Assembly: GCA_900302705.1 (NCBI GenBank)
Contig: OUUY01000064.1
Location: 1 to 64,000 of the forward strand
Direction: 5' to 3'
Length of the DNA stretch: 64,000 bases
Origin: Candidatus Sulfobium mesophilum
Lineage (GTDB): Bacteria > Nitrospirota > Thermodesulfovibrionia > Thermodesulfovibrionales > UBA6898
In this document: one piece after another, positions 6,232-21,656 of the stretch
Position numbering within the stretch: the first letter of the stretch is position 1
How the letters are laid out: each line of letters begins with the position of its first letter
Notes under the pieces: model-generated
Seen by the model: only the letters and a program-made list of their open reading frames with translations
What the model was told of the DNA's origin: nothing
Databases searched by the model: none
Position numbers and translations under genes: made by a program

Positions 6232-7702
6232 ATGAAAAAGGTTATTGTCATAGACGATGAGCCTTTTATCCTTATGATGATAGAGGACCAATTAAAGGGC
6301 GCAGGCATCGACGTCGTCACACTTCGAAGCGGCGTAAACACGGTCGAAGTCGTGAGGCAGGAGAGACCCGGCCTGGTGATACTCGACTGGATGATGCCGG
6401 AGATAAGCGGAATAGAGGTATGCAGGAACCTTAAGGCAGAGCATGATACGTCTGATGTCCCGATTTTATGCTAACGGCAAAGGGGCAGGATGCGGACGAA
6501 CAACTGGGGTTGTAATGCGGCGTTGCCAGATATATCACTAAACCCTTTAGCCCCAAGGCTCTTATGGAAAAGGTGCGCGAGGTATTAGACGTTGACCAGT
6601 AGGGATATTGGTCTTTCCCTGACTATTCGCGAGCTCAGTAACGCCTACGAAGAACTCTCTCTGCTTTACAGGATGTTCTAGGTTTTTTCCTTTCTCAGCA
6701 TAGATGTGATCTGCATCGGAATTACCAAAGAGGCGGTCAACACCATAGGCGTGCAGACTGCTGCCGTGCTCTTCCTTAATGAGAACAGCGACATGCTCTA
6801 TACAAAGACCTGTCAGGGGAAGTGGGACTGCGAACGTGTCATAGATAAAACAGTGGATGTTATCTGGAGGCAATTGGTTCCAGAAAAACATCGGCACATT
6901 GCAGGCTCATAGAAACCGAACATAAAGAACATTTTCCGGAATTGTCGTCGCTTATGATCTGCCCCATTGTGGGCAAGGCGAGAGTGATCGGTGCGATTGT
7001 GGTCGCCGACAAGGAGCCTGGTGAAGAGCTTTTCTCCAATGACTCCAAGCTTCTCTCTACAATCGCTACCGAGGCCGGTCTGGCCATCGAAAATGCTTTG
7101 CTTTACAGCGAGCTCGAAGCGCTGCTTCTGGGGGCCATACGGTCGCTGGTTAAGGCGCTCGAAGCGTCCTCATACTGGACTGCCGGTCATACGGAACGAG
7201 TTACCGAATATGCCCTCGGAATAGGGCGGGTTATGGGTCTTGAGGCCGGAATGCTCGAAAAACTTAAGATAAGCAGCCTGCTTCATGACATCGGAAAGAT
7301 CGCAACGCCAAAAGAGATTTTGAATAAGAATGGAAAACTTGAGCGCAATGAATGGGACGAGATAAAGAGGCATCCGGGTCGCGGCGCCGATATACTTGTG
7401 GAACTAAAGCAATTTAAAGAGATTATCCAGAGGTCAAGTATCACCACGAGCACTGGGACGGACAGGACGGCATCTTCGGCCTGAAAGGGGAGGAAATCCC
7501 GCTCAATGCGAGGATCCTTGCCGTTGCAGACACCTTCGATGCGATGACCTCAGATAGACCTTAAAGACAGATGAGGACAAAGGCACAGGCAATTGAGGAG
7601 ATAACGCGGTGCTCAGGGATCCAGTTTGATCCGTCGGTGGTGCAGGCTTTCCTCGTCTGGGTTGAGGGTTTTACCCCACCGCATCGAGTTTCCGTATTCT
7701 GA
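6232..7702 (+). pseudogene. Decayed response regulator: REC-GAF-HD-GYP (c-di-GMP phosphodiesterase type)
   Basis: Pieces of one protein lie in three frames. REC (KVIVIDDEPFILMM, VILDWMMPEISG) runs from 6232 and stops at 6474. A one-base loss at about 6465 moves the reading frame to MLTAKGQDADEQLG, followed by an in-frame TAA and then ARYITKPFSPKALMEKV. A GAF-like piece (TIGVQTAAVLFLNENSDML, then IGAIVVADKEPGEELF) covers 6700-7100. An HD-GYP piece (AGHTERVTEYALGIGRVMGL, LLHDIGKIATPKEIL) covers 7120-7440. Another shift follows, to [10 protein letters not shown] and [18 protein letters not shown], which ends in TAA where the family has Tyr. At least three frameshifts and several stops show genuine decay. 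An intact ancestor would have been a cyclic-di-GMP phosphodiesterase response regulator. The remnant tail overlaps the 3' end of the opposite-strand gene. Confidence 0.9.
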
Positions 7703-19331: not shown

Positions 19332-19883
19332 CTATGTCCCCTTATGCAGCTTGTCGAATTCCTTTTTAAAGTGACCGAGCGTGATTTCGTCATATATGCA
19401 GAATTCGATCACATCCAGACTGACATCGGTATGTTTTTTGAGAAATAAGACTGATTCTCCGACAAGAATGCGGGCGCATCGGTCCTTTGGAAATCCGAAT
19501 ATGCCTGAACTGATCGCCGGAAGGGAGATGCTCCTTAAATTCTTTTCATTGGCCAGCACGAGTGTGCTCTGCACGGCATTTTTAAGCTTGCCGTCCTCAT
19601 CTCCCTCGCCCATTCTGGGGCCGACCGCGTGGATCACGAATTTTGAGGGGAGTCTGCCCGCACCAGTTAAAACTGCTGTTCCTACAGGCGTGAACCCTAT
19701 CCTGTCGCTTTCCTCCTGAATAATGTTGCCGCCCTTCTTCACGATGGCGCCTGCAACGCCGCCGCCGTGCTGCAGATGAGAATTGGCTGCGTTTACAATG
19801 GCGTCAACATCCCGCTCAGTTATGTCTCCCTGTACCAGACGAAGGGTTTTGTTTCCTATTTTGTGCTCCTGGATAACTTTCAT
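19332..19883 (-). CDS. Macro domain protein (ADP-ribose / O-acetyl-ADP-ribose deacetylase type)
   Basis: A 183-aa single macro domain of the MacroD/YmdB type. The substrate loop is VNAANSHLQHGGGVAGAIV, followed by VGTAVLTGAGRLPSKFVIHAVGPR and SLPAISSGIFGFPKDR. These proteins bind ADP-ribose and remove O-acetyl- or protein-linked ADP-ribose. It is transcribed divergently from hflX. A GGGGC stretch precedes the ATG. The asparagine in VNAAN and the glycine-rich loop are intact, so it should be active. The physiological target is unknown. Confidence 0.92.
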   Translation of the reverse strand: MKVIQEHKIGNKTLRLVQGDITERDVDAIVNAANSHLQHGGGVAGAIVKKGGNIIQEESDRIGFTPVGTAVLTGAGRLPSKFVIHAVGPRMGEGDEDGKLKNAVQSTLVLANEKNLRSISLPAISSGIFGFPKDRCARILVGESVLFLKKHTDVSLDVIEFCIYDEITLGHFKKEFDKLHKGT

Positions 19884-19994
19884 TTTTTCTGCCCCCTTAT
19901 TCTGTGATTCACAACTGTCTAAAGGTTTATTTATCTATGCTAAGATAATATAAAGAAATGTCAAAGTTTTGAAATCTTTTTTGGAGGAAACGCA

Positions 19995-21656
19995 ATAGCC
20001 GCACTCTACGGAAAACTGACAGGTCTCAAGGGAAGCCAGATATATGCCCTTGAGAGGATTTACCGCAGACGTCTTCATGACGAGTTGGTAAGCGTAGAAC
20101 TTGGAAAGTACCTGGCTCAGATATCCTTTGAAATAGGCAGGCAGGTCGGCATTATTGTCTCCCGAAGGGGAGCTGTTACTCATGTCGTCATAGGCGATGC
20201 AAAAAGCATTTTTATTCCTCCTCTGACTGACTATCCTGTCGGCAGGAGGGCTCTGAGAGGACTCAGGTTTATTCATACGCATCTTAATAACGAGCCTCTT
20301 AACCAGGATGACCTTACCGACCTTTCGCTCCTCAGATTTGATATCATCGCCGCAATAGGTGTCAAAGACGGTCTGCCGGCTGACATTCACGTTGCTCATC
20401 TGATGCCTCAGGGGGCAAAGGCCCCTGTGGAGGTGTTGCCTGCTGCGGATTTCTTTCAGTATAAAATCGATTTCAAACCCTTCATGACTTCCCTTGAGGA
20501 AGAACTCGAACGTTCACGCGGGTTCGAGGTTGCCGGAGATGATTCAGCCGAAGGGCGCCGAAGAAGCCGGGAGAGGGCTATTCTCGTCAGCGTTTCTCTG
20601 AGACCTAAACACGAACAGGAAGATTCCGTCGAAGAGCTGACGGAACTTGCGGAGTCGAGTGATGTGATTGTGCTGGCTTCAGCTATACAGAGACCGAAAG
20701 AAATCAATCCAAAATTCCTTATGGGTGAAGGCAAGATCAGGGAACTCGTCATAACGGCGATGAACAGGGGCGCTACGTTGCTTATCTTCGATCAGGACCT
20801 TACGCCTTCTCAAATCAAATCGATCAGCGAACTGACAGAGCTGAAGGTTATTGACCGCTCCCAGCTGATACTTGACATATTCGCAAGACGTGCGCACAGC
20901 AGGGACGGAAAGGTGCAGGTGGAACTCGCTCAGCTCAAGTACCGGCTCCCCAGACTTACCGGAAAGGGAACAGCGATGTCCCGCCTTATGGGAGGTATCG
21001 GCGGCAGGGGACCAGGCGAGATGAAACTTGAAATTGACAGACGGCGGGTCAGAGACAGGATAGGGCTTCTGGAAAGGGAATTAAAGATCTTGAGCAAGGC
21101 ACGAAGTCAGAGAAAGTCGCGGCGGGTTGAAAGAAGAATCCCAATAGTGTCCATTATCGGATACACTAATGCCGGGAAATCGACCCTTCTAAACGCCCTG
21201 ACAAAAAGCCGAACATTTGTCGAAGACAAGTTATTTGCCACACTGGATACCGCCAGCAGGAGACTCAGGTTCCCGCGGGAACGGGAAGTTGTGATCACCG
21301 ATACTGTCGGCTTCATCAGAGACCTCCCCAGGGATCTTATGGCTGCCTTCAGGTCTACGCTCGAAGAACTCGAGGACGCGGACCTCCTCCTGCACGTTGT
21401 CGATGCGTCAAACCCCAGGTTCGAACAGCATATCGCGTCAGTGGGGTGCATTCTTTCTGAACTTGATCTGGTTGGTAAAAAGCGGCTTCTCGTTTTTAAT
21501 AAAACAGACAGGCTCACCGCTGAGGAGGCCGAAAATCTTTCAGTAAGATTTGGGGCCATAGACGTCTCAGCCCTTGACACAAAGACATTTGGGCCGTTGC
21601 TTGATGCCGTCGAAGATGCCATCTTTGGTGAAAAATTGATTGAGGCAAAGGTATAA
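19995..21656 (+). CDS. hflX: GTPase HflX, apparently with an AUA start codon
   Basis: A ribosome-associated GTPase that splits stalled 70S ribosomes. G motifs are GYTNAGKSTLLNAL (G1), DTVGFIRDLP (G3) and NKTD (G4), with the HflX-specific GGIGGRGPGE loop upstream. The first canonical start in frame is a TTG at 20085. However, conserved N-terminal sequence continues upstream without interruption (IAALYGKLTGLKGSQIYALE, then RIYRRRLHDE), like the GN-SGLK-Q---LERLYRRR region of other HflX proteins. A GGAGG at 19983-19987 sits exactly seven bases before an ATA codon at 19995, and no ATG, GTG or TTG lies between the upstream stop (19941) and there. I therefore place the start at ATA 19995 (553 aa). 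A point error in an original ATG is the alternative. Confidence 0.9.
   Translation: MAALYGKLTGLKGSQIYALERIYRRRLHDELVSVELGKYLAQISFEIGRQVGIIVSRRGAVTHVVIGDAKSIFIPPLTDYPVGRRALRGLRFIHTHLNNEPLNQDDLTDLSLLRFDIIAAIGVKDGLPADIHVAHLMPQGAKAPVEVLPAADFFQYKIDFKPFMTSLEEELERSRGFEVAGDDSAEGRRRSRERAILVSVSLRPKHEQEDSVEELTELAESSDVIVLASAIQRPKEINPKFLMGEGKIRELVITAMNRGATLLIFDQDLTPSQIKSISELTELKVIDRSQLILDIFARRAHSRDGKVQVELAQLKYRLPRLTGKGTAMSRLMGGIGGRGPGEMKLEIDRRRVRDRIGLLERELKILSKARSQRKSRRVERRIPIVSIIGYTNAGKSTLLNALTKSRTFVEDKLFATLDTASRRLRFPREREVVITDTVGFIRDLPRDLMAAFRSTLEELEDADLLLHVVDASNPRFEQHIASVGCILSELDLVGKKRLLVFNKTDRLTAEEAENLSVRFGAIDVSALDTKTFGPLLDAVEDAIFGEKLIEAKV

Follow-up and report, generated by a model that had tools for sequence, protein, structure and literature searches.

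Nearly all sampled Nitrospirota appear to begin the gene of the ribosome-splitting GTPase HflX at AUA, AUC or AUU, a start codon class that IF3 discriminates against

The stretch of DNA analyzed here, referred to as the window, comprises 64,000 nucleotides of Candidatus Sulfobium mesophilum. The draft genome in which it forms contig 91 totals 2.77 Mb in 151 contigs (84% complete) and has Nitrospirae and Thermodesulfovibrionales metagenome bins as its nearest named relatives. On the plus strand, a coding sequence of 553 codons and a stop (19995..21656) encodes the GTPase HflX. As a whole, the protein scores 437.6 bits against TIGR03156 (curated cut-off 216.75), and GTP-bdg_N, GTP-bdg_M, and MMR_HSR1, all above the Pfam cut-offs, make up its core (20574..21620, plus strand). 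The core is preceded by an N-terminal domain (19995..20570, plus strand), which is conserved from the first codon onward and opens with the pattern I-P/A-x-h-Y-G-N-x-x-G-L-K. Residues 91-116 of this domain (20265-20345) display an invariant H-T-H...D pattern (H94, H96, D106, D116), which may resemble a metal-binding JAMM/MPN-like site. Upstream of hflX, a divergent gene on the minus strand (19332..19883) encodes a presumably macro-domain-like product, named from a sequence motif. Hence, hflX is the first gene on its strand here.

The hflX frame is closed upstream by an in-frame TAA (19941..19943, plus strand). From position 19977 the window reads TTTTTTGGAGGAAACGCAATAGCCGCACTCTACGGA, which contains a Shine-Dalgarno (SD) motif GGAGG (19983..19987, plus strand), followed after 7 nt (AAACGCA) by the codon ATA (19995..19997, plus strand). 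The computed duplex of the GGAGG region with the anti-SD tail amounts to -9.3 kcal/mol. The earliest conventional start in the frame is TTG at codon 31 (20085..20087, plus strand), which lies inside the conserved region and is therefore not considered the start. A first-pass annotation of this DNA had proposed initiation at ATA 19995, pointing to GGAGG exactly seven bases before it, to the lack of any in-frame ATG, GTG or TTG between the stop at 19941 and this codon, and to conserved HflX sequence upstream of TTG 20085. Spacing and frame are confirmed in the sequence, and the start itself as well as the extended N-terminus are borne out by the comparison of relatives described below. An RNA switch in the leader was rejected as a candidate, since the hflX leader had no Rfam match and the fold of the start region was unremarkable (z = -0.74).

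Homologous starts were gathered from the genus, family, order, class, and phylum of the window genome. Genomes, most of them metagenome assemblies, were chosen by protein match independently of the start codon, and removal of identical copies resulted in 194 distinct Nitrospirota loci. The codon homologous to ATA 19995 was ATA in 74, ATC in 55, and ATT in 54 of these, i.e. 183 loci with an AUH codon (AUA, AUC or AUU). Eleven loci carried ATG (9), GTG (1) or TTG (1). The AUH start was found throughout the class and, beyond it, in nearly every sampled family of the phylum, including the complete chromosomes CP070737 (L130) and CP070669 (L189), both with ATA. Canonical starts were mainly confined to three families (f15, f22, and f24), with isolated cases at L093 and L193. 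Thus, relatives predominantly have neither an ATG at the equivalent place nor a true start corresponding to position 20085, and judged from the aligned loci hflX in Nitrospirota almost always begins at AUA, AUC or AUU. Outside the phylum, the two readable homologues that share the N-terminal domain, one from Fusobacterium (L250) and one on an unassigned IMG/VR contig (L276), both start with ATG. In family f22 (L211, L212, L320, and L321), the canonical ATG or GTG frame is open far upstream (664-724 codons); these loci mostly have a poor SD sequence and are possibly coupled to an upstream gene. At the strict threshold, an hflX match was missing in some Nitrospirota genomes (G011, G043, G061, G064, G070, G167, and others).

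The window derives from a fragmented draft genome, which might be taken to favor a sequencing error or a chance change of ATG to ATA in this one assembly, but 183 of 194 loci share this codon class, and they stem from numerous independent assemblies, the two complete chromosomes among them; we regard such an explanation as practically negligible.

Several properties mark the AUH codon as the point of initiation. At codon 1 of the AUH loci only the third base varies, among A, C, and T, and over the whole set the sole clear alternative is Met or another start codon. Internal hydrophobic positions of HflX (codons 4, 16, and 22) swap Ile with Val and Leu. From codon 4 onward amino acids are conserved and third codon positions vary. 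Codon 2 specifies Pro, Ala or Ser in 138 of 143 loci; as Met aminopeptidase prefers these second residues, this fits removal of the initiator Met. An SD match of at least 5 bases precedes 91% of the AUH codons versus 12% of control positions, mostly at a proper spacing of 4-11 nt. In three loci (L078, L067, and L046) the start, as judged from SD spacing, is displaced by 1-3 codons, and ATC or ATT once more occupies the first position.

Initiation elsewhere, either at a downstream ATG, GTG or TTG or upstream via frameshift or read-through, was weighed against these data. TTG 20085 is the annotator's default in the window, and ORFs in other frames run through the AUH codon at 56 and 68 of the 183 loci. 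These ORFs are not conserved, however, and upstream entry was rejected on this ground. Of the 183 loci, 140 lack a usual in-frame start 5' of the AUH codon as far as the upstream stop, and the other 43 have an ATG, GTG or TTG in frame somewhere upstream, at scattered distances. A stop codon directly precedes the AUH codon in 14 of the 183. Downstream, the position at which a canonical codon first occurs varies from locus to locus (median codon 47), and a downstream start was rejected because conservation of the protein extends up to the AUH codon, to which the SD sequence is properly spaced. Taken together, this makes another start very improbable, and on the comparative data translation of hflX starts, with near certainty, at the AUH codon.

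A number of control genes were inspected for their start codons. In 30 infC loci of the same clade, ATA or ATC follows GGAGG in all but one, the starts having been placed visually according to SD spacing; the exception (L228) concerns one of two paralogues, which seems to start with ATG. The window genome encodes infC on other contigs (G000:C1:7406-7900 and G000:C28:12872-13351), and two genes for IF3 are present in it and in several relatives. In most of the genomes read, the divergent paralogue likewise has an ATA or ATC start preceded by GGAGG. Obg, a control ribosome-associated GTPase, starts with ATG or GTG in 19 of 19 readable genomes. Syntenic contigs of relatives supplied homologues for 46 window genes including hflX, for several genes from only one comparison genome, and no second conserved AUH start was found among the 45 others. 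Wherever homology extended 5' of the first canonical codon, either a relative had ATG at or close to this position or the extension was due to gene overlap or chance. One gene with apparent upstream homology (6849-7484) proved to be frameshifted. It belongs to a GAF/HD-GYP-type gene (6700-7484, plus strand) whose N-terminal part runs on in another frame; the gene is uninterrupted in relative G001, so that the window version is an assembly indel or a pseudogene. A general use of AUH starts in the clade was therefore rejected.

The distribution of third bases was evaluated on a gene tree built quickly with FastTree from the first 154 loci, partly from short fragments. At least 36 changes among A, C, and T were counted at the third base of the start codon, and at most three more led to G. 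Assuming that one third of third-base changes give G, the binomial probability of at most 3 of 39 changes to G is 0.0002, which speaks for selection against ATG; this is a rough estimate, since it is based on the FastTree gene tree. Canonical starts, found in eleven of the 194 loci, account for six changes on the same tree. Hence, the throttle attributed to the AUH codon below can be lost or replaced.

The strength of the SD sequence differs with the start codon. The median computed pairing is -7.3 kcal/mol in the 11 canonical loci versus -10.1 kcal/mol in the 183 AUH loci (Mann-Whitney P = 0.0006, the 11 canonical loci being few and non-independent), and -6.9 kcal/mol in 37 ordinary window genes, for which the choice of start was approximate. 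The combination of a weak codon with a strong SD sequence and of a strong codon with a weak one fits a selected output level of hflX. It appears as if output in the canonical-start lineages were held down in another way. The pairing in hflX fits the situation in S. aureus, in which non-canonical starts are accompanied by extended SD sequences (PMC13009471).

Under stress, 70S ribosomes are split by HflX, and reassociation of free 30S with 50S subunits is prevented by IF3 (PMC9067457). IF3 discriminates against start codons that do not end in G and represses them (PMC4611024). According to the mechanism we propose, the AUH codon of hflX (AUA at 19995 in the window) would be read by the initiator tRNA, and the protein would begin with fMet-Ala or fMet-Pro. 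Lacking a third-position G, this codon falls into the IF3-discriminated class, and hflX would initiate poorly in spite of its strong SD sequence. Poor initiation would keep the ribosome-splitting GTPase scarce, and its synthesis would be predicted to rise, in step with that of IF3 from infC, as IF3 activity per 30S subunit falls. An AUH start, throttled HflX, and a response to IF3 parallel to that of infC together probably represent the best explanation of the data, and we hold this with considerable confidence. Its parts differ in strength. By analogy to precedents in E. coli, Streptomyces, and S. aureus, which very likely apply, the AUH codon very likely throttles HflX. Dynamic control of hflX by IF3 would follow from the chemistry of the codon class, from which we also infer the link of the hflX start to initiation fidelity. 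Physiological co-control of HflX and IF3 is speculative.

Alternatively, the AUH codon may fix a low level of HflX without any physiological regulation via IF3, in the way proposed for pcnB of E. coli. The weaker SD sequences of the canonical-start lineages, which look as if a fixed set-point mattered, are consistent with this, as is S. aureus cvfC1, whose output from AUU is low and not affected by the medium (PMC13009471). On the other hand, the IF3 sensitivity of AUH codons (PMC4611024) lets some response be expected by chemistry, infC shares this codon class in the genomes concerned, and a fixed level would leave unexplained why the phylum employs a weak codon with a strong SD sequence rather than a weak SD sequence. 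A purely static function therefore seems somewhat unlikely to us.

The first-pass annotation had compared hflX with the autoregulatory rare start of infC. The likeness holds as an analogy of codon class, but the term autoregulatory does not, as infC-type autoregulation acts on a gene whose product is IF3. The product of hflX is HflX, so that control would be cross-control by IF3. Extending the proposed IF3 response, a small IF3 regulon in Nitrospirota is conceivable, in which IF3 and HflX share AUH starts, low IF3 per 30S subunit raises both, and homeostasis of the subunit pool results throughout the phylum; this we put forward tentatively, and we slightly more doubt than expect it.

To our knowledge, AUA, AUC or AUU rarely serve as natural starts, and the case with deep conservation is infC. 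A second phylum-wide AUH gene, which also encodes a ribosome-subunit factor, suggests that start codon stringency serves as a control input beyond IF3 autoregulation, and that Nitrospirota couple ribosome splitting to how stringently translation is initiated. A change of the codon to AUG, or less IF3, should raise HflX. For annotation, gene callers limited to ATG, GTG, and TTG must misplace the HflX start in Nitrospirota, usually losing the conserved N-terminus. No published report of hflX with a non-canonical start was found in a literature search confined to open-licence papers. What is new, as far as we can tell, is the gene, its tie to ribosome splitting, and the depth of conservation across the phylum; the type of control is already known.

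The closest known system is infC with its AUU, AUC or AUA start and translational autocontrol. It shares with hflX the codon class with a variable third base other than G, the strong SD sequence, the function as a translation-factor gene, deep conservation, and presence in the same genomes. In contrast to hflX, on which IF3 would act in trans, infC is subject to control by the IF3 that it encodes. Streptomyces sigR provides a precedent for a gene other than that of IF3, as its GTC start puts it under IF3 repression (PMC5472188). Like hflX, it combines an IF3-discriminated start with an extended SD sequence and conservation in its taxon; it differs in the codon (GTC or GTT), in the restriction to one genus, and in encoding a stress sigma factor. 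The IF3 effect on sigR was established experimentally, whereas the hflX case is known from sequence comparison.

The Staphylococcus genes ccpN (AUA) and cvfC1 (AUU) resemble hflX in having such starts with extended SD sequences, but they have unrelated functions and were mapped by ribosome profiling (PMC13009471). In S. aureus, AUA and AUU starts yield about 10% of AUG output (PMC13009471). For the chromosomal E. coli gene pcnB, limitation of translation by an AUU start has been proposed, as cited in PMC13009471; like hflX it is a chromosomal gene with an AUH start, but it encodes an RNA-processing enzyme. E. coli hflX and Listeria hflXr encode orthologues of this GTPase, and these rise in level under stress. 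Their control, however, is exerted not at the start codon but by transcription or attenuation, since E. coli hflX lies in a heat-shock superoperon and Listeria hflXr is under leader attenuation (PMC9067457).
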